Origin: Acidiferrobacterales bacterium
Lineage (GTDB): Bacteria; Pseudomonadota; Gammaproteobacteria; Arenicellales; JAJDZL01
Length of the DNA stretch: 64,000 nucleotides
Direction: 5' to 3'
Assembly: GCA_028820695.1 (NCBI GenBank)
Contig: JAPPIB010000052.1
Span: 62,001-126,000 of the forward strand
This document shows, piece by piece, positions 9,152 through 31,536 of the stretch. Every line of letters starts with the position of its first letter. Positions within the stretch are counted from its first letter, which is position 1. The notes under the pieces were generated by a model. It did not search any database. It was not told the origin of the DNA and saw nothing but the letters and a program-made list of their open reading frames with translations. The position numbers were made by a program, and so were the translations under genes.

Positions 9152-12100
9152 TCAATGTGGCAGCGCTTTACTTTTCCAGTCACCCGAAGCGCTTGAATCG
9201 ACGGCATCTTGGCCTTGGAGTTTTTCTCTCAGTGCGCTTGCGGTATGGGAACGCTTTGACCGAAGCACGCGAGAGAGTCTGCCTTGGGTGACGACTCGGC
9301 CACCAAAGTCCCCGCCTTCCGGCCCCAAGTCAATGATCCAGTCGGCTTCCGCAATAATGTCCAGATTGTGCTCGATGATCACAACCGTGTTCCCGGCATC
9401 GACCAATGAATGAATGACTGTGATCAGTTTAGCGACATCTGCGGTATGGAGCCCGACTGTCGGCTCATCAAGTATATACAAGGTATTGATTCGGTGGGTT
9501 TTTCCTTTGGCTTGTCTGGCACCTCCCTTTGGCAGAGCCTTTGACAGCTCGGAGACAAGTTTTATCCGCTGGGCCTCCCCGCCACTCAAAGTGGGACTCT
9601 GTTGTCCCAGAGTGAGATAACCCAATCCTACATCGACTAGCAAGCCAAACACGCGGGAAAGTGGTGGTATTGGAGCGAAAAACTCTTGCGCCTCTTCCAT
9701 GCTCATGTTGAGAACGTCCGCAATTGACTTGTCCCGATAGCGAACCGCAAGCGTTTCAGAATTGAATCTGCCTCCTGAACAACTCTCACACCTCATGCGA
9801 ACATCCGGCAAGAAATTCATTTCAATTTTCTTCAGCCCCTGTCCCCCGCAGTCCTCACATCTGCCACCCTCGACATTGAATGAGAACCTGCTCGCCTCGT
9901 AACCGCGAAGTCTCGCTTCAGCAGTATCGGAGAACAGCTTGCGTATCGTCTGCCAGACATTGACGTAGGTTGCCGGACATGATCGCGGCGTTTTCCCGAT
10001 CGGGGTTTGATCAACCTCCAATACCCTGCCGACACGGTCCGACCCGGTTATCCCGTCGCATCCATCCCAGGCACGCCCATCCGTGGTCCTCGACTGTCGC
10101 GATAACAATGCAGCCAGGTTTGGGTACAGTACATCACGAACCAATGTACTCTTTCCGCTCCCGCTCACTCCGGTTACGCAGACCAGCGACTCAAGTGGGA
10201 TTGATACGTTGATCTTTTTCAGATTGTTCCTGACTGCACCGGTAATCCGAATCGCAGATTTCTGATCAGGCACAGGTCTGGATCTGCCCATAGGATGCTC
10301 AAGTGGATTGCGGAGCATATTGCCGGTAATCGAATTGAAATTCTGCATGATCTGTGGCAACGATCCCGTCGCAACCACCGAGCCACCCCGAATGCCACCT
10401 CCGGGCCCCAAGTCAATAATGTGATCGGCACAGGTAATCGTTTCCTCATCGTGCTCAACCACGACTATCGTATTGCCCTTGTCTCTCAACGACTTCAATG
10501 CTGCAAGTAAACGCTTGTTGTCTCGCGAATGCAAACCGATTGTGGGTTCATCCAGCACATAGCAGGCTCCACACAGACTGGACCCAAGTTGTGCCGCAAG
10601 TCGTATCCGTTGCGCTTCGCCCCCACTCAGTGTTGGAGCTGAACGACTGAGTGCCAGATAGGAAAGGCCGACAGACTCCAGAAACTCCAATCTGGAATTG
10701 AGTTCCGAGAGAATATCAGCGGCAGCGTAGCTCTGTCTTTCGGACAAATCCAACTTCGCCAGCAGCAAACGAGCCGCGGATATGGAAAGTTCACAGATCT
10801 GATCGATTGTCTTGCCCTTGAACTTGACAGCCAGGGCGACGCGATTCAAACGCTTGCCCAGACATGTACTGCAAGCATCGTCGGTAGTGTCCTGCTCCGG
10901 AACCAACTCATCGTCCATATCGCAGTCCTGAAGTTCCAGCCCTGTTCCAAGACATGTATGACACCACCCCTGTCTCGAGTTATAGGAAAATAGTCTCGGG
11001 TCAAGTTCCTCGAAAGATCGCGCACAGCGGCTGCACGAACGTTGAGTCGAGTATGTTTTCAGTTCCTGTGTCTGTACTCCGGGCACCGGTGGTGTTGCAG
11101 CGATCCGAAAATGTCCATCGTTCACGTTCAATGCGTCTGTGATGGCAGCGCGCAGTTTCCGACTGTCTGAATCCGAAACTTTCACAGTGCTGATGGGCAT
11201 GTCGATGTCATGCTCGCGATATCGGTCTAGACGTGGCCATTGGTCTGTCGGTAACAGTTCACCGTCGACAAGAAGATGTGAGACACCTTTTCGATTCGCC
11301 CATTTTGCGAGGTCTGTGTAGTAACCTTTTCTGGATACAACCAAAGGGGCAAGTACACTGATTCGACTCCCGCGATACCGCGACTGAATCTGCTGAATGA
11401 TTGTCTCCACCGATTGGGATTCAACCGCAACGTCGCAATCAGGGCAATACTGAGTTCCAAATCGAACGAACAGCAGTCTGATGTAGTGATAGACCTCAGT
11501 CAGAGTCGCCACCGTACTTCTACGCCCACCGCGACTGGTCCGCTGTTCGATGGCAACAGTCGGCGGAATTCCCGTGACCGCATCAAAGTCCGCTCTGGTA
11601 GCTGGCTGTACAAATTGCCTCGCGTAGGCGTTGATTGTCTCCAGATACCTTTTCTGCCCTTCCGCAAAGAGAATATCAAATGCAACCGTACTCTTGCCAC
11701 TGCCACTGAGTCCGGTTATGACTGTCATTGCGTTGTATGGAATCGACAGGCTGATTTCCTTCAGATTTCGCTCACGGGCGTTGCGAACGGCAATTTCGCG
11801 TTGCGCAAGTCTTTTGGATTCAGTGCTGCGCAATGCGACTGTCGAGGAGTGTGCGTCATGTCGCGTAAAGTGATCCCGCAGCGCGATTTCGGTTGGCGTC
11901 TTCCCCCTTTCGGCCAAATCCCGAGGGGTACCCTCGGCAACCAGCTGGCCACCGCAATCACCACCTTCAGGCCCAAGATCAATGACCCAGTCGGCGCATG
12001 AAATCAAATCAAGATTGTGCTCAATCACAATGACCGAGTTGCCCCCGTCAATCAATTTTCTCAACGAAGTGACAAGTCTCGAAACATCCTTGAAATGCAA

Positions 12101-14773
12101 CCCGGTTGTCGGCTCGTCAAAAAGGAACAGTATGTGTCCCAGGTTTCGAATTCGGCGACTGCTCTTGGCCACATGGGCCGCCAGCTTAAGCCTCTGAGCC
12201 TCGCCACCACTCAAGGTGGGGATGGGTTGACCGAGCTTGAGGTATTCCAGACCTACATCCACCAATGGCGACAGGGCATTGCATATTTTCCGACTGTCCC
12301 TGAAAAACTGCACTGCCTCAGCAACGGTCATCTCCATGATCTCGACGATCGACTTGGGCGTCACCTGGGAATCCGGGCTGATCCGCACATCACATATTTC
12401 AGAACGGAATCGAGCACCATTACAGTCCGGACAGCGAAGGTAAACATCACTGAGGAACTGCATCTCGATATGCTCAAAACCGGTACCACGACAGGTCGGA
12501 CAACGCCCGAGATCAGAGTTGAAACTGAAGTTCCCGGCTGTGTAGCCTCTGCTGATCGCCAGCGGCTCCTGTGCCAATAACTCCCGAATGGCAGTCAGCG
12601 CTCCCACATAACTCACCGGATTTGAGCGGGTGGTCTTGCCGATCTGGGCTTGCGACACCATCACAACGTCCGTCAGCTGATCAATTCCCCTCAACTCGTC
12701 AAAATCCCCCGGTACCGGAGTCGATTTCCCTTGACCTCGAAGCATTCCTCGAAACAAGACCTCTTCGACCAGGGTCGATTTGCCCGAACCGCTGACACCT
12801 GTCACACAAACCATTGTGTTGAGTGGAATTGCAACATCAATGCTCTTGAGATTGTGTTGCCGCGCACCCTTGATCAGTATTTCCTGACTCGATTGCGGTG
12901 ATGCCGACATCATTCCGGTCGGCAGATAGTCGCCATTGACCAAGCACCTCGCGGTGACAGAATCGCGGCTTTCCATCAACTCGTCGAGCGATCCGAAATG
13001 CACAACACGACCACCCTTCTCGCCGGGGCCCGGGCCGATGTCAAGTACCTGTCCGGCCGCACGGATCACCTGTTCTTCATGTTCAACCACAAGAAGGGTG
13101 TTACCTGCCTGGCGCAGACGATGAAGAACGCTCACTACCCGGCCGACATCGCGGGAATGCAAGCCAATCGTCGGTTCGTCCAAAACAAAAAGTGTATTCA
13201 CCAATGTCGTTCCGAGCGCAGTCGTAAGGTTTATTCTCTGAACCTCTCCACCGCTGAGTGTCCGCGACTGACGATTCAAGCTCAGATATCCCAGTCCGAC
13301 ATCATGCAGATACTGCAAGCGGGCGCGGATCTCATCGAGCAGCATGTTCGCAGTCTCGTCCACGGCAGCCGAAAACTCAACTCGGTGGAAGAAGTCAAGG
13401 CATGATGCAATCGGAAGCGATACCAGTTCATGAATCGACAACCCCGGCATGCCCGCAAACTGATCCTCCGTCATGGTGTGATTCGGATGCCTGATTCTTC
13501 TGACTTGCCGCTGGATTTCTGGATGATTCCCAACCCGCCAGTTCAATGCATCCAGCTTGAGTTGGGCACCGCAGCAATCCGGGCACTCCGTATAGATTCG
13601 GTATTTCGAGAGGAAAACACGGACATGCATATTACGTCTGCGCCGTTCCAGCCAGCGGAAAAACTTCTTCACCCCGTACCACTTGCCGCTATACCAGCCG
13701 CCCTCTCCTTCCATTACCCACTCGCGCTCATTCTCACTCAAGTTCTTCCAGGGCACATCAAGGGGAATGCCACTTGACTCGGCGAAACGAAGAATATCGC
13801 GGTAACTTTCACTGTAGACCGGTGAACGGAAAACCTTGACGGCACCCTGACGCAACGTCAGCGAATGATCCGGAATCACCTGCTCGTAGTCGATACCCAT
13901 AATGCGCCCAAATCCGCGGCAAGTCTCGCAGGCACCAACCGGAGAATTGAAGGAAAACAGATTTGAAACCGGTTCATTGAAATTAAGGTTGCAATTTGTG
14001 CAGCGCAGACTGCTCGAATACTCATGCATCCTTCCTGCACCTTGTCGCTCCTTGTCCAATCGCTGCACGTAAAAAGTTCCCGCACCTGCACTCAATGCCG
14101 ATTCGATTGATTCAAAAAACCGAGAGCGATTTTCTTCCACGCATTGCAGTCGATCCTGAACGACCAATACAACCCTGCCCGTCCGACTGGCAATTCGCGT
14201 GTATCCTTGGCGTGCGAGATGCTCGGCGGCGTATTCGGTCGACAGTTCCTCTGGTATATTGATGGGAAACAGAATCTGGACAAATTGTGAGTTGCGACGC
14301 GATGTGGTCCACTCGGACATGATCTTATCGACGATCTGCTCGGGACTTAGTCGGCTGATCGCAGCCCCACAGCCATTGCAATGCAATGATGCCACCCTTG
14401 AATACAACAACTTGAGATGATCGTTGAGTTCGGTCATCGTGCCCACGGTCGAACGCGTGGACCGAACAGGATTGACCTGGTCGATAGCCACCGCCGGTGG
14501 CACACCGTCAATTGACTCGACCCGCGGTCGGTCCATTCGATCCAGGAATTGGCGAGCGTAGGGAGAGAATGTCTCGACATACCGCCTCTGGCCTTCTGCA
14601 TAGATCGTGTCAAAGGCCAATGAGGACTTGCCGGAACCACTCACACCGGTGATCACGGTCAGTTCCTTGAGCGGAATATCGAGGTCGATGTCCTTTAGAT
14701 TGTTCTGTTTGGCACCACGAACTTTCAGATAGCCGGTACCATTACCGGAACGATGTCGGGTGCGTTGACTCAC
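9152..14773 (-). CDS. uvrA: Tandem UvrA (two fused UvrA units, four ABC ATPase domains)
   Basis: Excinuclease ABC damage-recognition subunit, but 1,873 residues long against about 940 for ordinary UvrA. Two full UvrA copies follow each other, joined near residue 970. Four Walker A loops are visible (GVSGSGKSS near 45, GVSGSGKST near 663, GLSGSGKST near 1020, GVSGSGKST near 1540), each with its own LSGGE signature and its own DEPT Walker B (for example LFVLDEPTIGLH and LYILDEPTVGLH), so all four ATPase sites look intact. CxxC zinc-finger pairs also occur in both halves (CNGCG, CTNC...CETC, CPTC...CPDC, CPDC, CEDC...CESC). UvrA normally works as a homodimer that loads UvrB; this chain could be a covalent dimer. 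Similar long UvrA paralogues are known in some proteobacteria. No frame break is seen. It converges with the TPR gene only 7 bases away. Confidence 0.95.
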   Translation of the reverse strand: MSQRTRHRSGNGTGYLKVRGAKQNNLKDIDLDIPLKELTVITGVSGSGKSSLAFDTIYAEGQRRYVETFSPYARQFLDRMDRPRVESIDGVPPAVAIDQVNPVRSTRSTVGTMTELNDHLKLLYSRVASLHCNGCGAAISRLSPEQIVDKIMSEWTTSRRNSQFVQILFPINIPEELSTEYAAEHLARQGYTRIASRTGRVVLVVQDRLQCVEENRSRFFESIESALSAGAGTFYVQRLDKERQGAGRMHEYSSSLRCTNCNLNFNEPVSNLFSFNSPVGACETCRGFGRIMGIDYEQVIPDHSLTLRQGAVKVFRSPVYSESYRDILRFAESSGIPLDVPWKNLSENEREWVMEGEGGWYSGKWYGVKKFFRWLERRRRNMHVRVFLSKYRIYTECPDCCGAQLKLDALNWRVGNHPEIQRQVRRIRHPNHTMTEDQFAGMPGLSIHELVSLPIASCLDFFHRVEFSAAVDETANMLLDEIRARLQYLHDVGLGYLSLNRQSRTLSGGEVQRINLTTALGTTLVNTLFVLDEPTIGLHSRDVGRVVSVLHRLRQAGNTLLVVEHEEQVIRAAGQVLDIGPGPGEKGGRVVHFGSLDELMESRDSVTARCLVNGDYLPTGMMSASPQSSQEILIKGARQHNLKSIDVAIPLNTMVCVTGVSGSGKSTLVEEVLFRGMLRGQGKSTPVPGDFDELRGIDQLTDVVMVSQAQIGKTTRSNPVSYVGALTAIRELLAQEPLAISRGYTAGNFSFNSDLGRCPTCRGTGFEHIEMQFLSDVYLRCPDCNGARFRSEICDVRISPDSQVTPKSIVEIMEMTVAEAVQFFRDSRKICNALSPLVDVGLEYLKLGQPIPTLSGGEAQRLKLAAHVAKSSRRIRNLGHILFLFDEPTTGLHFKDVSRLVTSLRKLIDGGNSVIVIEHNLDLISCADWVIDLGPEGGDCGGQLVAEGTPRDLAERGKTPTEIALRDHFTRHDAHSSTVALRSTESKRLAQREIAVRNARERNLKEISLSIPYNAMTVITGLSGSGKSTVAFDILFAEGQKRYLETINAYARQFVQPATRADFDAVTGIPPTVAIEQRTSRGGRRSTVATLTEVYHYIRLLFVRFGTQYCPDCDVAVESQSVETIIQQIQSRYRGSRISVLAPLVVSRKGYYTDLAKWANRKGVSHLLVDGELLPTDQWPRLDRYREHDIDMPISTVKVSDSDSRKLRAAITDALNVNDGHFRIAATPPVPGVQTQELKTYSTQRSCSRCARSFEELDPRLFSYNSRQGWCHTCLGTGLELQDCDMDDELVPEQDTTDDACSTCLGKRLNRVALAVKFKGKTIDQICELSISAARLLLAKLDLSERQSYAAADILSELNSRLEFLESVGLSYLALSRSAPTLSGGEAQRIRLAAQLGSSLCGACYVLDEPTIGLHSRDNKRLLAALKSLRDKGNTIVVVEHDEETITCADHIIDLGPGGGIRGGSVVATGSLPQIMQNFNSITGNMLRNPLEHPMGRSRPVPDQKSAIRITGAVRNNLKKINVSIPLESLVCVTGVSGSGKSTLVRDVLYPNLAALLSRQSRTTDGRAWDGCDGITGSDRVGRVLEVDQTPIGKTPRSCPATYVNVWQTIRKLFSDTAEARLRGYEASRFSFNVEGGRCEDCGGQGLKKIEMNFLPDVRMRCESCSGGRFNSETLAVRYRDKSIADVLNMSMEEAQEFFAPIPPLSRVFGLLVDVGLGYLTLGQQSPTLSGGEAQRIKLVSELSKALPKGGARQAKGKTHRINTLYILDEPTVGLHTADVAKLITVIHSLVDAGNTVVIIEHNLDIIAEADWIIDLGPEGGDFGGRVVTQGRLSRVLRSKRSHTASALREKLQGQDAVDSSASGDWKSKALPH

Positions 14774-21756: not shown

Positions 21757-21957
21757 ACAGACCGTAATGCCTTCAAATAGGGTCATGCAAGTTGGGCTTC
21801 GACAATTTCGGAACGCAGATTTTGAGTGCTTCAAGCGGGCTTCGTCGAAATCGGTTTATAGCCGCTGCGGTTTGGCCAGGGATTGTGCACTCGCCGCTGG
21901 GTGTGCAATAGCATCGGAGACCTGTGTCTTGCCGATGCGTATCAGGCACTGCCGAAA

Positions 21958-22161
21958 CTAACCGGGCAACTTGGGGTTGCGTTGCCGCAGTTGTGCGCTA
22001 GCGGCCGCAGACAGCTGAGATTGCCCGCTATACACAGACGCCTCATTGTCTTCGAGAAACACCTCGGCCCGCTTCTGTGTCACAGCAATCCTCTCATTCA
22101 ACCCCTTAAGCTGGCCACTCAGAAGCTCGAGCATCGCATACGCCGAAGATGGAATCGTCAC
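21958..22161 (-). pseudogene. Possible transposase remnant (IS110-like, weak)
   Basis: A 67-codon minus-strand reading frame, GTG start, with LELLSGQLKGLNERIAVTQK followed by EDNEAS. The pattern resembles the middle of IS110-family transposases, where a helical stretch ends in an NEAS-like motif before the PGIGP region. That PGIGP part is not seen; the reading frame continues into unrelated glutamine- and alanine-rich sequence. The resemblance is short, so this may be chance. It lies in the decayed-looking stretch between DUF1841 and the sterol methyltransferase gene. Confidence 0.25.
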
Positions 22162-22715
22162 CTTGGCACCCTATCGTCAACCGCATGAACCGGAATTCAG
22201 TTCTTGGCAATATCCACACCCCGACCTTGATGATTTTGTGTATATTCCTTATCTGGACACTCCGTATGAATTTTGTGATGAACTGGATTAATCGAGCTTC
22301 GGTTACATTATGATGTCGTTGAACCTCTACGAGGTATCCATTTCATTAATCATAGCTATATCGATCGGTCGGTTTCGCCGGTAACGGTTATGCCAATTCG
22401 CTTGCTTATCGACAAGAAGTCTGTACACCAAAAACGAGTGTCGGCTTGGTTCCTGAAGAATGTTCTCGCGCTGGAAACTTGTAGCACAAACGACGCCATT
22501 GCTGGGACCAATTCGCTTCAACGCAATACGGAAAGCACACCACGCGGTACTGTCATCGCGTTTGTTGTGGATGTACTGTTTCGTTCACCGTTCCTAACAG
22601 CACTCGACGAGATCAAAGAGACGACTGCAAACACCAGAGCAAGAGACAGCTGGCGCAAGAGCATGACCAGCAGTTCGACGGACTATATTCATATGTATAT
22701 TCGCACAAATCTCGC
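22162..22715. other. Gene-poor stretch before the sterol methyltransferase
   Basis: Nothing recognisable is encoded here. One plus-strand frame of 109 codons (22390-22719) ends with an ATGA overlap on the methyltransferase start, but its translation matches no family I know and it has a low-complexity look (SSSTDY, TANTRARD). It may be a leader, a decayed gene or noise. With 21757-21957 this gives almost 1 kb without a confident gene, unusual in an otherwise tightly packed window. Confidence 0.5.
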
Positions 22716-23756
22716 ATGAAACTGCACAAACTATCTGATGGACTGAAGACCACGTATCGGGAAACGAACCTGGCTCGCCGGGTGCAATTATTCGATAGGT
22801 GGAGTGCCAAGGCATTGTCGGAGGATATCGATACCACCAGCTACGATCACTGCAAGACAGTTGAAGAATATTACGATCTTTGCACCGAGTTTATGGTCTA
22901 CGGTTGGGGCGAGTCCCTGCACTTCGCCCCATTGTCGCCTCAAGAAAGCTTGGCAGATTCCAAGATTCGGCATCAGCGGCTGATGATTGCAAAGCTGGAA
23001 CTAGAAGAAGGCATGTCGGTCATTGATGTCGGTTGCGGAATCGGTGGCCCGATGCGTCGTGTAGTCCGTGAAGCTGGTGTCAGGGTTACTGGAATCAATC
23101 AAAGTGAAGTTCAGTTGGAAAAGGCGACATCGCTTAGTTCCAAGGCACAGATTGACCATATGGTTGACTACGTTGCGTGCAGCTTCATGGATATGAGCGG
23201 TATAGAGGGCGGTTCCTTCGACCGGGGCTATGCGATTGAATCGACATGCCATGCACCGGACAAGGTGAAAGCGTTCAGCGAAATTTACCGCGTATTGAAG
23301 CGTGGTGCCCTTTTCTGGGGTCAGGAAATGTGCATGACGGACAAATTCGACCCCGATGACAATCGGCACCGGGAAATCAAGCGGGAACTCATGCACGGTA
23401 TCGCACTCAAGGAGATCGCGACAACTACTGAGGTTAACCAGGCACTCGAAATGGCCGGTTTCGAGATCGTTGAGGGAAATGACCGTGCTGTTAGCACAGA
23501 GGACGGTCCGTTCACGCCGTGGTACAAACCCATGGAGACTCGGCACGGTGCGATTGGCAACACCTTGTCCCGCACTAAGCTGGGCCGCAAGGTGTTCCTG
23601 GGAGCATCCAGACTGGCCGAGGCGGTGGGTGCTTTCCCGAAAGGCTCGGTGCAGGTCATCCGACTATTGGACCGGACCGCCGATGCCTATGTTGCAGGTG
23701 GTCAGACTGGGATTTTCACCCCGTTATATTGTTTCCTGGCGAGAAAACCTCTTTAA
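22716..23756 (+). CDS. Sterol C24-methyltransferase-like protein (Erg6/SMT family)
   Basis: SAM-dependent methyltransferase of 346 residues with the full architecture of eukaryotic sterol 24-C-methyltransferases, which methylate the sterol side chain. All four SMT signature regions are present: aromatic YGWGESLHF (62-70), SAM-binding IDVGCGIGGP (103-112), acidic YAIESTCHAP (172-181) and FTPWYKP (266-272). The last 65 residues match the Sterol_MT_C domain, ending VAGGQTGIFTPLYCFLARKP. Other bacterial small-molecule methyltransferases share region II but normally lack the others. No squalene epoxidase or oxidosqualene cyclase lies in the window, so the substrate could be a host or environmental sterol, a sterol made elsewhere in the genome, or another lipid. 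The gene is flanked by decayed DNA and a transposase remnant, suggesting transfer. The start is ATG 22716, with no strong ribosome-binding site. Confidence 0.88.
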   Translation: MKLHKLSDGLKTTYRETNLARRVQLFDRWSAKALSEDIDTTSYDHCKTVEEYYDLCTEFMVYGWGESLHFAPLSPQESLADSKIRHQRLMIAKLELEEGMSVIDVGCGIGGPMRRVVREAGVRVTGINQSEVQLEKATSLSSKAQIDHMVDYVACSFMDMSGIEGGSFDRGYAIESTCHAPDKVKAFSEIYRVLKRGALFWGQEMCMTDKFDPDDNRHREIKRELMHGIALKEIATTTEVNQALEMAGFEIVEGNDRAVSTEDGPFTPWYKPMETRHGAIGNTLSRTKLGRKVFLGASRLAEAVGAFPKGSVQVIRLLDRTADAYVAGGQTGIFTPLYCFLARKPL

Positions 23757-23948
23757 ACTTAAGGATGCTGTTGCTACGAAAGCTCATCAAACGCTGGGTG
23801 TAGTCCTCATAGACACGCCTGTCGAGTTCTCGCTGGCATCGGCCAAACCGCCTGATCAGATTTACCTGTGCTGCGAGTACTCAGCATTGTGTGGGGTTTC
23901 AAAAACATTTTCTGTAGGAACAACTTTCCACGCCAGTCACATTGATGA

Positions 23949-24212
23949 TGCTTCAGCATCAAAAGTCTCGCCGAGCAGCAGCATATCAATAAGCGAATCG
24001 GAATCCGACCGTCACCGGATTTGACCATTCGCCAGTACGTGGTGAATGTCGGCCAACTGGCTGGATTCGCACCCTCGAAACGACAGCCGGTACCGGGCAC
24101 CAGAAATATCTGGCAGGGAACAGAAAAACTGATGGAAGGCGTAAGAATGCTTGAGACACTGGAACAAAGCGGAATGATCAATCAGATAGCTTGGTCAGGT
24201 GTGGAAAAGTGA
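23949..24212 (+). pseudogene. IS4-type transposase, C-terminal remnant
   Basis: The frame reads LTIRQYVVNVGQLAGFAPSK, then PGTRNIWQGTEKLMEGVRML. This corresponds to the C-terminal end of IS4/Tn5-like transposases, where a WIAQLGGFL-like run is followed by GEPG and LWRG(W/L)QRL. In-frame stops at 23943-23948 cut it off upstream, and the DDE catalytic core is absent, so it is a fragment. The 190 bases between the methyltransferase stop and these stops hold nothing recognisable. Confidence 0.6.
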
Positions 24213-24429
24213 TAGATCACTGATGGCAGTCCGACCGATAACTGAGGTTCGAACTATCCATTATCCAAATTGACTGATCAGCCGCTTTCCCTTTCACATT
24301 CCACACATCGGACACAACTCGAGCAGTCCCGGTTGTTTGCTCGATCAACCGACGAATTTCATCGGCTTTGTGCAAGATGGAGTATATTGTGGATTCAATT
24401 TAACCTTTCACCTACTTAGGAGATAATTA

Positions 24430-24690
24430 ATGAAAACACAAAAGGCACTTCTAGCGGCAGCGATTTCTGGCGCCTTGGCACTTGGAACACTTTCCCTATC
24501 AACCGCTGTCAATGCAGATGGCGATAAGGAAAAATGTTACGGTGTAGCGAAAGCCGGTAAAAACGACTGTGCGACGAACAACTCGTCCTGTGCAGGGACA
24601 TCTACCATGGATGACCAAAAAGATGCTTTTGTCGCAGTCCCGAAAGGATTGTGTGAACGACTGACCGGCGGCTCCACGGAACCTAGCTGA
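24430..24690 (+). CDS. bufA: Bufferin-type RiPP precursor (DUF2282)
   Basis: Small exported precursor of 86 residues. A signal peptide (about 1-29, ending VNA) precedes a mature part with four cysteines at 36, 47, 54 and 75, in the DUF2282 arrangement KEKCYGVAKAGKNDCAT ... SSCAG ... PKGLCERL. In the bufferin (gig/buf) systems, a DUF692 enzyme oxidises the central cysteines to thiooxazole-type groups, and the peptide buffers copper in the periplasm. All the partner genes follow directly. The ATG has a good AGGAGA site 6 bases upstream. A TATATT at about 24382 could be a -10 element, but no clear -35 was found. Confidence 0.88.
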   Translation: MKTQKALLAAAISGALALGTLSLSTAVNADGDKEKCYGVAKAGKNDCATNNSSCAGTSTMDDQKDAFVAVPKGLCERLTGGSTEPS

Positions 24691-24721
24691 TCTTTCCTAT
24701 CTCTTGTAGATATGTAGAAGT

Positions 24722-25573
24722 ATGTCACGCAACCCGATACCACAGAATTCAGTCGGAGTCGGGTTGCGTGCACAGCACTATCGGGATGCCATCTCAAATC
24801 CAAAGGCGGTTGACTGGTTTGAGGTTCACAGCGAAAATTACTTTAGACAAGGTGGTGCGCCACATTTTTATCTCAACAAAGTCCGGCAAGATCACCCCAT
24901 CAGTTTTCACGGTGTAGGTCTATCGCTCGGATCAACCGATCCTCTGAATCTCTCTCACCTGACACGGCTCAAGGAGTTGGTAGATATCTATCAGCCAACG
25001 TTGGTTTCTGAGCATCTGTCCTGGAGTTCCGTCGACGGTGTCTATCTGCATGATTTGCTTCCGTTGCCAATGACCGAGGAGTCCCAAAGTCATCTCGCCG
25101 GCCGTATTGGGCAGGTGCAGGACTTCCTGGGACGGCAGATACTGATCGAAAACGCATCTACATATCTGGAATTCTCCCAGTCGCAGATCCCGGAATGGGA
25201 GTTTATCTGTGAAATTTCAAACCGAAGTGGCTGTCGGATTCTATGCGATGTGAATAATGTCTATGTGAACTCGCGCAATCACCGCTTCAGCGCAACTGAG
25301 TTCATCGAGGCCGTGGACCCCGATCTGGTCGGAGAGATTCATCTGTCAGGTCATACGGTCAAACAGCTCGCTGAAGGTGAGATTCGTATCGACACCCATG
25401 ACCAAAGAGTTTGTGATGAGGTGTGGGAGCTATACAGGCTTGCAGTTCGACGATTCAGGCACGCACCGACGCTGATCGAGTGGGACAAGAATTTGCCTGA
25501 CTATTCGGTACTGCTGGATGAGGCCAATACCGCACGGAGCCTCCTGAGCGAATCAACCCATGCACTTGCGTGA
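24722..25573 (+). CDS. bufB: MNIO-family RiPP-modifying enzyme (DUF692)
   Basis: Multinuclear non-haem iron-dependent oxidative enzyme of 283 residues with a TIM-barrel fold. Family motifs in order are GVGLRAQHYRDAI (N-terminal), WFEVHSENYF, SFHGVGLSLGSTDPL, SEHLSWSS, LIENASTYLEF, LCDVNNVYVNSRNH and EIHLSGHT; the His, Glu and Asp in these bind two or three irons. DUF692 proteins such as MbnB and BufB oxidise cysteines of a precursor peptide. The gene lies 31 bases after the DUF2282 precursor and overlaps the DUF2063 gene by 14 bases, the classic bufABC order. The product is cytoplasmic. Confidence 0.93.
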   Translation: MSRNPIPQNSVGVGLRAQHYRDAISNPKAVDWFEVHSENYFRQGGAPHFYLNKVRQDHPISFHGVGLSLGSTDPLNLSHLTRLKELVDIYQPTLVSEHLSWSSVDGVYLHDLLPLPMTEESQSHLAGRIGQVQDFLGRQILIENASTYLEFSQSQIPEWEFICEISNRSGCRILCDVNNVYVNSRNHRFSATEFIEAVDPDLVGEIHLSGHTVKQLAEGEIRIDTHDQRVCDEVWELYRLAVRRFRHAPTLIEWDKNLPDYSVLLDEANTARSLLSESTHALA

Positions 25574-26333
25574 ATTACAGACCCGGTTTTGCCAGCAAGT
25601 CCTGTTCGGTGAGCAAACAGGTGTTGATTCACTGGTCCATCCGGGTGAATTCACCTCAGAACGCCGATTACAGATATATGGAAACAATATAAGGTCAACC
25701 CTCACGGAAAGCCTGCAAAGCATCTATTCCGCCACCGAAGCTATCGTAGGGCGCGACTATTTCAAAATGCTCGCACGTCAATATTTGGTTGATTTCCCTC
25801 CGGAACAAGGCAGTATCCATCAATTTGGCGATCAGTTTGCGCAATTCGTCAAGACCTTCGAGGGATTGGAGAAAATCGCATATCTGACGGATATCGCGTC
25901 GATCGACTGGGCTTACCATACTGCCTTTCACGCACCCTCAGCCCCTTCAGTAAGTGTGAGTTGCCTGGCACGGTTCACTCCGGACGACTACGAGAACTTA
26001 CTGCTCCACCGACATCCATCAGTCACAGTCGTTTCGTCATCGTTCCCGATTTTTGACATCTGGAACTATGCTCAGAATGAATCGGAAGATATTTCTGTCC
26101 CAGACATAAACGCCGCTGCGCAAAATGTGCTGATCGTTCGTAACGATTTGACAGTCGAGGTGATCAATCTGGATAAGGAACTGTCGGTTCTGCTGGACAT
26201 GTGCAGCGAAAACCGCACATTGGGTTTCATGTTAGGCTGTGTAATTGACAGCAATTCTACCTATAATCTGGAAGTTGGACTTCATACTCTATTCTCAACC
26301 GGCGCGGTCCATGATGTTTCGATTGCAAACTGA
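25560..26333 (+). CDS. bufC: MNIO partner protein (DUF2063)
   Basis: DUF2063 protein of 257 residues. The N-terminal helical domain shows the family pattern LRELQTRFCQQVL ... RLQIYGNNIRSTLTESLQSIYSATEAIVGRDYFKMLARQY (split here by description: Y-x-N-N/R-x-x-x-x-L, then FxxLAxxY). In bufferin and related systems this partner recruits the precursor to the DUF692 enzyme. The C-terminal half is less conserved. Translational coupling to bufB through a 14-base overlap supports a shared complex. Confidence 0.88.
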   Translation: MHLRELQTRFCQQVLFGEQTGVDSLVHPGEFTSERRLQIYGNNIRSTLTESLQSIYSATEAIVGRDYFKMLARQYLVDFPPEQGSIHQFGDQFAQFVKTFEGLEKIAYLTDIASIDWAYHTAFHAPSAPSVSVSCLARFTPDDYENLLLHRHPSVTVVSSSFPIFDIWNYAQNESEDISVPDINAAAQNVLIVRNDLTVEVINLDKELSVLLDMCSENRTLGFMLGCVIDSNSTYNLEVGLHTLFSTGAVHDVSIAN

Positions 26334-26368
26334 CACCTGCTCCGGGATAACGAAGACACCTGAAAATT

Positions 26369-26836
26369 ATGTTTAAGAACACTTCGCTTGGCATTTTTTG
26401 CCAACGTATCCTTTGCCTGCTTGACTGTGCCGCGCCCATCGGTGACCTGATTCTGCGAATTTGGGTAGCCAATGTGTTCTGGAAGTCAGGGTTGACCAAG
26501 ATTTCGAATATTGACTCAACCATGTATCTTTTTGAATACGAATACGCCGTGCCAATCATTCCATTTGAACTCGCGGCCTATCTTGCCATTGCCGCCGAAC
26601 TCGTACTGCCGCTAATGCTTGTTTTCGGCTTCGCCGCAAGAGCCGCAGCCGGCGCGCTGTTTGTCTTCAACATTATCGCCGTCGTTTCGTATTCGGCGTT
26701 GAACGCCGTTGGAATTGCCCAACATCAGGTCTGGGGGATAATGTTGCTTGTGCTGCTGTTACGGGGACCGGGACAGATTTCTATTGACTACTTCATTCGA
26801 AAACGTATCCTCGGACATGACTCTCGGAGTCCTTGA
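26369..26836 (+). CDS. bufD: DoxX-family membrane protein
   Basis: DoxX-like inner-membrane protein of 155 residues with four hydrophobic segments. Family text includes GDLILRIWVANVFWKSGLTK at the first helix and AELVLPLMLVFGFAARAAA in the middle. DoxX proteins accompany DUF2282/DUF692/DUF2063 genes in the gig and buf operons; their role is unknown, perhaps in redox or copper handling at the membrane. The stop codon overlaps the start of the radical SAM gene (TGATG), placing both on one message. Confidence 0.85.
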   Translation: MFKNTSLGIFCQRILCLLDCAAPIGDLILRIWVANVFWKSGLTKISNIDSTMYLFEYEYAVPIIPFELAAYLAIAAELVLPLMLVFGFAARAAAGALFVFNIIAVVSYSALNAVGIAQHQVWGIMLLVLLLRGPGQISIDYFIRKRILGHDSRSP

Positions 26837-27858
26837 TGTCGGTTTTCCCAGCAGTTACCCTGGACAGCTGTGTCGAGGAATTCACTGACACATTCGACTC
26901 CACGCGCTTCAGTTTCGCTTCCGCATTGACCCGAAGCGGAATCGGTGAACCGCGGAGGGTTCAGATCCGGGATATTCAAGTCAATGTAGGCAAACTCTGT
27001 AATCAGGCCTGTAACCATTGCCACGTTGATGCCGGTCCCAAACGGACGGAAGTCATGGAATGGGCTACGATGGAGAAAATTGTGCAATGGTGTGCCAGAC
27101 ACGACATCAAGACGGTGGACATCACAGGAGGCGCACCCGAACTCAACCCGAATTTCCGCAAGTTTGCTGAATCCTGCCTGGAAATCGGAGCAAATGTAAT
27201 CTCTCGCTGCAATCTGACCGTCCTGCTTGAACCCGGTCAGGAGTCGCTCGCCGAGTGGTATGCAGACCACAAAATTGCCCTGATCTGCTCCTTGCCGTGC
27301 TACTCAAAAGAAAATCTGGAAGCCCAGCGCGGAAAAGGAGTGTTTCGCAACAGCATACGCGCCTTGCAGATGCTGAACAACCTCAACTACGGACGCGATC
27401 CGGAACTGTCACTGGACCTCGTCTACAACCCGATCGGCGGAACCCTGCCACCGGCACAGTCCGACCTGGAGGCTGCGTACAAGACACGGCTGAGTGAGGA
27501 CTTCGGAATCTGTTTCAACAATCTGTTCACCATCACCAATTTACCGATCAGCCGATTTCGCCACTATCTGGAACGATCCGGGGACTATGAAAATTACATG
27601 AACCTGCTTGTGGAACACTTCAATCCCGACACGGTAGAAGGATTGATGTGCAGGCACATCATCAGTGTTGACTGGTTGGGAAGAATATTCGATTGTGACT
27701 TCAACCAGATGATGGATATCCATGCAGGCTGGCGAAGTCCAAGATATCTTTGGAATTTGACAGCTGCAGAAATCGAAACCGATCGAATCGCATTCGACTC
27801 ACATTGTTTTGGCTGTACTGCCGGTGCCGGAAGCAGCTGTACCGGAACGCTGACCTGA
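26836..27858 (+). CDS. arsS: ArsS-like radical SAM/Cys-rich protein
   Basis: Radical SAM enzyme of 340 residues. The [4Fe-4S] motif CNQACNHCH (CxxxCxxC, about 55-63) is followed by the GGAPELNP SAM-binding strand. The C-terminal DUF3641 region ends CFGCTAGAGSSCTG, the Cys-rich motif of the rSAM (seleno)protein ArsS family; some members carry selenocysteine at its first position, but here it is cysteine. ArsS is linked to arsenosugar formation in organisms that also have ArsM; no arsM is visible here. The ATG at 26836 overlaps the DoxX stop, so the gene appears to belong to the bufferin operon. It could therefore act on the same peptide or on a small molecule; that is inference. A TTG at 26833 is the only other close start. 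Confidence 0.85.
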   Translation: MSVFPAVTLDSCVEEFTDTFDSTRFSFASALTRSGIGEPRRVQIRDIQVNVGKLCNQACNHCHVDAGPKRTEVMEWATMEKIVQWCARHDIKTVDITGGAPELNPNFRKFAESCLEIGANVISRCNLTVLLEPGQESLAEWYADHKIALICSLPCYSKENLEAQRGKGVFRNSIRALQMLNNLNYGRDPELSLDLVYNPIGGTLPPAQSDLEAAYKTRLSEDFGICFNNLFTITNLPISRFRHYLERSGDYENYMNLLVEHFNPDTVEGLMCRHIISVDWLGRIFDCDFNQMMDIHAGWRSPRYLWNLTAAEIETDRIAFDSHCFGCTAGAGSSCTGTLT

Positions 27859-30016: not shown

Positions 30017-30537
30017 CCGGTCACTACTCTCATTATCTTGGAAATCCGAATATCAGCCCTTTCATCCACAACCGCAGGTGAGTGCGAAGCCTGCCACCCT
30101 CGCATATGAAATAGTGAGTGCAGATTGACCGGCTGGAGGGAAGAGATTCTCATACTGATTTCGTACGATAGCACAGCCATCCTATCGGATTGGCAAAGAA
30201 CATACGTGATCACACCGAACCTGGATGCAACATGAAGGCAACACGTGCGGAGAAGCCAGGATAGAAACAAATTACACGTTCGATTGACTGCGATAATCAT
30301 CGACACACACCGCTCCTTCAATCGAGTGCCCATGCAATGATGATCGCCAAACTTGGGTTTTGTACGGAGTGCAAGACAGTCGATGGCAGTGTATTGGTAA
30401 CGCCACTTGCTTACTTTCCAGACAGGTGGAATCAACCGCTTGAGACACAATTCGCTAAACTTCTGTCAGCCACTGCGTGAATCTGACATAATTTGTCCTG
30501 CCACCACCCAGGAGGTACCGCTAAAGGTGTAAGAGAC
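30017..30537. other. Gene-free divergent control region
   Basis: This gap of about 520 bases separates the Bcr/CflA exporter (minus) from the dioxygenase (plus). Minus-strand frames are open but resemble nothing known and carry unusual Cys/Trp/Arg-rich translations, so I treat it as non-coding. An AGGAGGT at 30510-30516 is a strong Shine-Dalgarno match but lies 21 bases before the ATG at 30538, with AAGAGA closer in. No riboswitch or repeat was recognised. Confidence 0.5.
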
Positions 30538-31536
30538 ATGAACCCATCAGTTGCTCCTATCGATTTTCCGCAACAACTGCCCGCAGGTTACCGTTACCAG
30601 CGCGAGACGATCAAGTTCGACCCCGATCGGCACTTGCAACTTGAACCGCCTGAAGCCACCCTTCAATTGAGTGACCTCGGCTACCGGGCTGATGAAATTG
30701 AAAGATGTCCCACTGCGTTTGCGGTATCCAGCGCTGCCCGAATCCTGTCTGACGAAGGCGTTGAGGTGATGCTTGAAACCACGCGCCGATTGAAAAGACA
30801 TTCAGTCAATTGCGAGCGCATCGAAAACATGGTTCGAGGTGGAGTCTACCAATCCGAGTTTCTGCGCGACTTCTGTCTGTGTACAGAGGTTACCGATTTT
30901 CTTTGTGATATTTTCGGCACGCCGGTGGCGCCACATACCATGCCCCTTCATCTCGGCCATCTGAATTACGCACCCGATGACTTGAAACGCTCGGTGGATA
31001 AGTGGCACCACGATACGCTTGGTTTGGATTACGTCCTGATGGTGTCTGATCCCACTCAATTGCAGGGCGGTGAATTTCAGTATTTCAAAGGCACTCGCCA
31101 CGAAGCGCAGGATTATGCGGACCGTAACGAACCGATTCCGGACGACAGGGTTTGCACGCCCGATTTTCCAAGCGCAGGTTACGCGATTGTCTTGCACGGC
31201 AACATGGTTGTTCATCGAGCGACCAGACTGACTCAGCGCGCGGAGCGCATTACATTGGTCAACGGTTACGTACCCCTGAACTGCGAAATTAATGACGCTT
31301 GCCGATTTCAGGATCTGTCGCTGGTCGACCCGCATCATGTACTGTTCACCGAGTGGGCGCGGCACAAGGCGTGGCTTTCGGTCGGCAAACTGCAAAATCT
31401 GATCACCAATATGCCATTTACCGACGACAAACAGGAGATTACCGCACAGCTTAGGGATGCTATAGCAGAAGTCGAGACAGCAATTGAAGATATCAATGAT
31501 GACAAACAGGCGGTAATGATTCACTACGGCGATTGA
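30538..31536 (+). CDS. Fe(II)/2-oxoglutarate dioxygenase, PhyH-like
   Basis: Predicted non-haem oxygenase of 332 residues with a jelly-roll core. The facial triad is visible as H157-x-D159 in KWHHDTLG and H226 in NMVVHRATR, with R237 (AERITLVNGY) placed to bind 2-oxoglutarate. The fold resembles phytanoyl-CoA dioxygenase-family enzymes. The substrate is unknown, since there is no operon partner; the nearest gene upstream is a divergent efflux pump. The N-terminal 150 residues are family-specific. ATG 30538 is chosen over the in-frame TTG at 30493 because the segment between them contains the ribosome-binding site. Confidence 0.75.
   Translation: MNPSVAPIDFPQQLPAGYRYQRETIKFDPDRHLQLEPPEATLQLSDLGYRADEIERCPTAFAVSSAARILSDEGVEVMLETTRRLKRHSVNCERIENMVRGGVYQSEFLRDFCLCTEVTDFLCDIFGTPVAPHTMPLHLGHLNYAPDDLKRSVDKWHHDTLGLDYVLMVSDPTQLQGGEFQYFKGTRHEAQDYADRNEPIPDDRVCTPDFPSAGYAIVLHGNMVVHRATRLTQRAERITLVNGYVPLNCEINDACRFQDLSLVDPHHVLFTEWARHKAWLSVGKLQNLITNMPFTDDKQEITAQLRDAIAEVETAIEDINDDKQAVMIHYGD

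Follow-up and report, generated by a model that had tools for sequence, protein, structure and literature searches.

A mobile, divergent clade of bacterial sterol methyltransferase-family genes with its own putative sterol-remodelling cassette, represented in a gammaproteobacterium with a sterol gene cluster

Demosponges contain C-26-methylated sterols such as aplysterol and 26-methylstigmastane, and side-chain-alkylated steranes serve as fossils of sponges and algae. The assignment of such steranes to sponges and algae has already been weakened by bacterial sterol methyltransferases (SMTs). To our knowledge, no SMT is part of the sterol pathway of Methylococcus. This pathway comprises CYP51 as well as Rieske and SDR demethylation proteins (SdmA, SdmB), with an RND/MMPL transporter near the sterol genes (PMC10942540), all of which have counterparts at the locus described here. 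In Ircinia symbionts, an ERG24-CYP51-LSS operon with a convergent SMT1/ERG6 gene was described from 10 phyla together with horizontal transfer (Kelly et al., 2022; PMC9531527). Members of the same SMT family were reported from uncultured symbiotic bacteria, sponge symbionts among them, in the main text of Brown et al. (2023; PMC10070321), often as two SMTs accompanied by homologues of osc, cyp51, erg24 and sdmAB; fused SMO/OSC proteins are already mentioned there, and a chlamydial SMT of that study belongs to a genome in which other sterol genes are lacking.

The stretch of DNA analysed here (64,000 nucleotides, hereafter the window) corresponds to positions 62001-126000 of contig C52 (146,730 bp) of a 2.77-Mb gammaproteobacterial MAG (G000; 97.6% complete, 1.1% contaminated). 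An earlier note on this DNA had designated one of its genes as a complete Erg6-like sterol C24-methyltransferase with all four SMT signatures. By its sequence, the gene is a real and complete member of the SMT family: the protein exceeds the curated Pfam cut-offs for the methyltransferase domain (Methyltransf_11, 59.5 bits; cut-off 21.2) as well as for Sterol_MT_C (65.3 bits; cut-off 21.7), a domain matched in none of 14 control genomes, and near full-length similarity was obtained to plant SMT1 (43% identity over 302 aa) and yeast Erg6 (35% over 346 aa), reference sequences whose exact letters are uncertain and on which the family call does not depend. Escherichia coli Cfa (27% over 90 aa) and UbiE align along short core stretches only, and the grouping with ordinary lipid methyltransferases named in the note as a counter-indication was not seen by similarity. 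A dN/dS of 0.12-0.17 against relatives indicates a constrained gene under purifying selection. Regarding the signatures, Regions II, III and IV of canonical 24-SMTs and the GIFTPL ending were found as claimed; Region I (FMVYGWGESLHF), however, is without the Tyr, Glu and Phe of Erg6 positions 81, 82 and 89 and thus deviates from the canonical aromatic Tyr81-Phe91 stretch with its adjacent acidic residue. The predicted fold (pLDDT 83, pTM 0.85) matches class I methyltransferases in general, with MitM and AtmM at the top (best Z about 26) and mycolic and phosphoethanolamine methyltransferases just behind; since only this general fold was matched, the model does not discriminate function. Among the matches listed, the solved structures include no relative that has the C-terminal domain of SMTs, and the entry 6f5z, titled '24-sterol C-methyltransferase', is a 231-aa protein to which the core alone can be matched.

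A scan of genome contigs with an SMT alignment yielded 520 relatives, the best 80 of which share 64-74% identity with the focal protein and span at least seven phyla (Chloroflexota, Dadabacteria, Nitrospirota, Nitrospinota, Gemmatimonadota, Acidimicrobiia, Alpha- and Gammaproteobacteria); as these are the nearest of the 520, the gene probably extends to further taxa. In a careful tree without outgroup, SMTs of the focal kind form a single clade, termed type A (support 100/100, stem length 0.97), which is separated from type B (100/99), from a third group C and from the eukaryotic sequences (97/95), the focal gene being sister to the copy of the same-genus genome G045 (97/95). In a tree rooted with E. 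coli Cfa and UbiE, these outgroups were too long-branched to place. Group C (99/99) consists of the second SMTs of the loci L038, L084 and L086, located on type-A contigs, and L075 carries a lone divergent SMT on a contig with a type-A gene. Within type A, phyla are partly interleaved in a larger, quicker tree, with misbinned contigs possibly behind some single cases. The better evidence for transfer is the unsaturated divergence between phyla (dS 0.62-1.8, dN/dS 0.12-0.26), with a dS of 0.62 between alphaproteobacterial and dadabacterial copies, which argues for horizontal movement of type A. Many of the records bear titles that presumably derive from sponge MAG projects, resembling names in the style of Aplysina, Ircinia, Rhopaloeides and Coscinoderma. 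These titles suggest a sponge habitat of the type-A carriers, and the gammaproteobacterium G000 is probably a sponge symbiont as well.

The altered signature is a property of the whole clade. Among 82 aligned type-A sequences (Erg6 numbering), Tyr81 is replaced by Met (focal Met60), Phe89 by Leu (Leu68), Ala221 by Trp (Trp201), Tyr223 by Gln (Gln203) and Trp225 by Met (Met205) in all 82, and Glu82 by Val (Val61) in 73, with Trp85, Ser88, His90, Phe91, the SAM motif, the CHAP motif and PWY essentially retained. Positions 81, 89, 223 and 225 are aromatic in nearly all other aligned SMTs. For the Region I stretch Tyr81-Phe91, a role in guiding methylation and deprotonation via cation-pi contacts is assumed (PMC5711494), and a glutamate flanking this region has been named as an essential active-site residue (PMC10968281). 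Since Tyr81, Phe89 and Trp225 are replaced throughout, type A is not a canonical Erg6, and the former designation holds with respect to the SMT family but not to Erg6/SMT1 proper, the protein belonging to a divergent clade. In view of the changed Region I and the kept SAM motif, type A should still perform SAM-dependent C-methylation but fit its substrate differently or yield another product. It is rather unlikely that type A is an ordinary 24-SMT with SMT1/Erg6 function, which would add the first methyl group to a delta-24 sterol, redundantly with the SMT of the sterol cluster described below, and whose changes would be neutral or rate-tuning. Such a function agrees with the full-length homology and the intact Regions II-IV, and Brown et al. 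(PMC10070321) observed side-chain alkylation for 20 of 24 bacterial SMTs assayed, in a set with pairs labelled '1 of 2' that may include type A. Nevertheless, the fixation of Met, Leu, Gln and Met at positions 81, 89, 223 and 225, the long stem branch, and the retention of type B in the type-A genomes of the window's order all argue against it.

The earlier note had seen no ring-forming gene in the window, had proposed to search the rest of the genome for sqe and osc, and had named sterols made elsewhere in the genome as one possible substrate. This alternative fits G000, as the contig of the focal gene carries, 48 kb upstream and outside the window, a full sterol cluster, in which squalene epoxidase and an oxidosqualene cyclase with the OSC motif DCTAE are fused (Table 1). 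Two tandem squalene-synthase-type genes were recognized by Pfam on contig C42, with the NCBIfam equivalog cut-off not reached. Thereby, squalene synthase, squalene epoxidase and an OSC-motif cyclase as well as a C-14 demethylase and a C-14 reductase, all components of a de novo pathway, are found in G000, whereas the C-4 demethylation proteins are best matches below their cut-offs (Table 1). Given this gene cluster, the organism probably makes sterols itself. Besides, a 244-aa membrane protein (C52:31962-32696) adjoins the cyclase and is near sterol genes also in G045, G065 and L098; an interpretation as sterol isomerase was rejected (no Pfam match, model pLDDT 46) and the protein was left unnamed. 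An acylating sulfoacetaldehyde dehydrogenase near the cluster (C52:29895-31310; SauS model 742 bits, cut-off 600) suggests, by similarity, the use of sulfonates.

Table 1. Features of the type-A locus (window positions) and of the sterol cluster on contig C52 of G000.
Feature	Position	Strand	Remarks
Stretch private to G000	21757..24429	.	holds the type-A gene
SMT type A, ORF	22716..23756 (= C52:84716-85756)	+	346 aa, ATG to stop
Region I, MVYGWGESLHF	22893..22925	+	aa 60-70; equivalents of Trp85, His90, Phe91 kept
Region II, IDVGCGIGGP	23022..23051	+	aa 103-112; SAM-binding
Region III, YAIESTCHAP	23229..23258	+	aa 172-181
Type-A signature, WGQEM	23316..23330	+	aa 201-205; in place of canonical A-x-Y-E-W
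Region IV, FTPWYKP	23511..23531	+	aa 266-272
Sterol_MT_C domain	23565..23750	+	aa 284-345, ending GGQTGIFTPLYCFLARKP; Pfam
Second SMT, type B	C52:19934-21004	-	more Erg6-like; 12 kb beyond cyclase cluster
Squalene epoxidase-oxidosqualene cyclase fusion	C52:32984-36460	-	1158 aa; SE, SQHop_cyclase_N, SQHop_cyclase_C domains
CYP51	C52:36412-37803		362 bits to solved P450 51
ERG4/ERG24-type C-14 reductase	C52:37819-38919		ERG4_ERG24 249 bits
Rieske oxygenase, SdmA-like	C52:38906-40093		best match SdmA model, 390 bits; below NCBIfam equivalog cut-off of 600
SDR, SdmB-like	C52:40041-41345		best match SdmB model, 280 bits; below NCBIfam equivalog cut-off of 600
Flavin amine-oxidase-like protein	C52:42553-44109		
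LolA-like protein	C52:44575-45390		
GPP34-P450 fusion	C52:45565-47559		Golgi phosphoprotein 3 domain + cytochrome P450
MMPL/RND transporter	C52:47692-50007		

Among 109 genomes of the window's order, an SMT is present in seven, all of which possess the OSC fusion, at 55-61% identity in the relatives; the same-genus genomes G046 and G047 have neither SMT nor fusion. Of 369 genomes drawn from the whole class, only the window's own has an SMT. The sterol cluster is syntenic in G043, G044, G045, G060 and G065, with a type-B SMT convergent to the cyclase. Within the order, type A occurs in G000, G045 and G065. The copy of G045 (73% to the focal protein) lies on the cluster contig, with the cyclase 12 kb and a GPP34-P450 gene 1.8 kb away, and that of G065 (56%) adjoins such a gene. 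Instead of a type A, G043 (contig C94) and G044 (C9) each carry a duplicated type-B SMT beside the cluster, the two copies lying 2.9 kb apart. In G000, the focal gene is isolated, with about 35 kb between it and the other cassette genes. Its flanks are syntenic with those of same-genus genomes, which makes contamination unlikely and rules out a eukaryotic source, so that the bacterial, gammaproteobacterial origin asserted previously is confirmed. The genes for DUF1841 and DUF692 proteins are 0.5-0.75 kb apart in G043, G044, G045 and G046, with no SMT between them, compared to a gap of 2.97 kb containing the type-A gene in G000; by this comparison, the gene has probably reached this site, apart from the other cassette genes, by relocation or acquisition, with loss in the relatives as the less simple alternative. 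A 196-bp part of the private stretch recurs at 79% identity on contig C50, and transposon remnants around the gene, considered as well, found no Pfam support. Elsewhere in the window, a tandem double UvrA is encoded by one ORF of 1873 aa (9152-14773, minus strand) with UvrA interaction and DNA-binding domains and several ABC motifs. A Bufferin-like operon (24430-27858, plus strand) comprises a small exported DUF2282 protein, an MbnB/TglH/ChrH-family enzyme, DUF2063 and DoxX, followed by an ArsS-like radical SAM protein, and the protein encoded at 30493-31536 (plus strand) gives no more than a weak, sub-cut-off score with the model of a halogenase-type (HalD) oxygenase.

The neighbourhood of type A was assessed in 80 loci (the best 80 of 520), unselected for neighbours. 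A GPP34-P450 fusion occurs in 57-59 of them, often at a distance of about 50 bp. RND transporters of MMPL or AcrB type were counted in 52 loci, KshA-type Rieske oxygenases (KshA_C domain) in 43 and the flavin oxidoreductase in 31. P450, RND and Rieske genes are found together in 31 of the 80 loci, and none of the three in 15, some of these on short contigs. Pfam matches bear out the fusion in four loci that belong to different phyla, and a literature search found no paper joining GPP34, P450 and sterol. The MMPL proteins of the cassette show similarity to sterol-sensing domains and Patched, above the cut-off in some loci and just under it in G000.

To evaluate the sterol supply, 48 carrier genomes were searched with the epoxidase-cyclase protein of G000. 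An OSC orthologue (60-62% identical) was detected in five, 18 have cyclases of 27-36% identity only, and 25, two single-chromosome genomes included, gave no cyclase match at all; all 20 weak cyclases that were read carry the hopene-type PDxDD motif. The absence of an OSC orthologue is firm in the four single-chromosome carriers (OX638332.1, OX638327.1, OX638325.1 and OX638353.1) only and may reflect missing sequence in the draft MAGs. Even so, 18 of the 25 carriers searched for an ERG4/ERG24-family reductase, including all four single-chromosome genomes, possess one, compared to none of 14 controls, which points to the processing of acquired sterols in carriers without cyclase. The use of host or environmental sterols, likewise suggested in the earlier note, is hence the better reading for most type-A relatives and its idea of a host association gains indirect support, whereas G000 has its own cluster. 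The changed Region I could also mean a substrate other than sterol, type A then methylating a lipid made by the carriers themselves, e.g., a hopanoid side chain, another triterpenoid or an isoprenoid. This is decidedly unlikely: the hopene cyclases of many carriers without OSC orthologue, the altered sterol-binding region and the closest solved structures, which are natural-product and terpenoid methyltransferases, accord with it, but the carriers without any cyclase match do not, nor do the ERG4/ERG24 reductases, KshA-type oxygenases and sterol-sensing-like MMPL transporters kept beside or with type A. That the cassette genes could be steroid-catabolic or detoxifying rather than biosynthetic, with P450, KshA-type Rieske protein and flavin oxidase degrading or inactivating host sterols and methylation blocking or marking the side chain, would suit the KshA_C-domain, P450 and flavin oxidase neighbours but is highly improbable, as the reductases and the fixed MMPL/RND association fit synthesis or remodelling better and the surroundings of the focal gene and of the sterol cluster show no catabolic cluster.

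The preferred reading, with a probability of roughly 0.6, is that type A would be a SAM-dependent enzyme of the SMT family alkylating the side chain of self-made or acquired sterols. In G000, sterols would be made de novo via the epoxidase-cyclase fusion, CYP51, the ERG24-type C-14 reductase and C-4 demethylation by the SdmA/SdmB-like proteins, the first C-24 methyl group would be added by the type-B SMT of the cluster, and type A with its changed Region I would catalyze a further or different side-chain alkylation as part of a horizontally shared sterol-remodelling cassette of GPP34-P450, flavin oxidoreductase, KshA-type Rieske oxygenase and MMPL/RND transporter. As most carriers are without cyclase orthologue, these would use sterols of the sponge or of neighbouring bacteria. 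Substrate, order of steps, position alkylated and direction of transport are what we infer for this system; type A may act after or instead of type B, on a self-made sterol in G000 and on host sterols elsewhere. Several type-A locus titles resemble those presumably used for Aplysina aerophoba MAGs. The main sterol of this sponge is the 26-methyl sterol aplysterol and the enzymes of C-26 methylation are undiscovered, no 26-SMT being known as of the main text of Brown et al. (PMC10070321), which together make type A a candidate for C-26 methylation, worth an assay but no more. Accepting type A outright as a second SMT class that acts on alkylated or host-derived sterols at a novel position or stage (e.g., C-26) and is transferred from phylum to phylum within sponges is tentative and, for now, doubtful; in that case, a mobile bacterial cassette instead of the animal would account for some of the sterol biomarker signal ascribed to sponges. 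If the preferred reading were true, symbionts would remodel sterols not of their own making, and these may include sterols read as animal fossils. Moreover, type A would provide a short list of candidate enzymes for those sponge side-chain alkylations, C-26 above all, that still lack an enzyme.

In comparison with known systems, type A shares domain order, Regions II-IV and the C-terminal domain with eukaryotic Erg6/SMT1/SMT2, whose Tyr81, Glu82, Phe89, Tyr223 and Trp225 are, however, replaced in the focal protein. The transporter of Methylococcus is of BstA type (PMC10942540), whereas that of G000 is nearer to the HAE3 and HpnN models. The operon of Kelly et al. (PMC9531527) matches the cluster upstream of the focal gene and the convergent type-B SMT of the relatives, but the SMT1/ERG6 annotation enriched there does not set apart type A and its P450/RND/Rieske cassette. 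Likewise, the cassette, the residue changes fixed in all 82 sequences and the wide distribution in cyclase-less genomes are absent from the main text of Brown et al. (PMC10070321). Thus, published work already covers bacterial SMTs and the sterol clusters found in sponge symbionts (PMC10070321, PMC9531527); what is new with respect to these texts, as far as the main text of Brown et al. extends, is a separate, mobile type-A SMT clade with a cassette of its own, carried mostly by genomes without cyclase.
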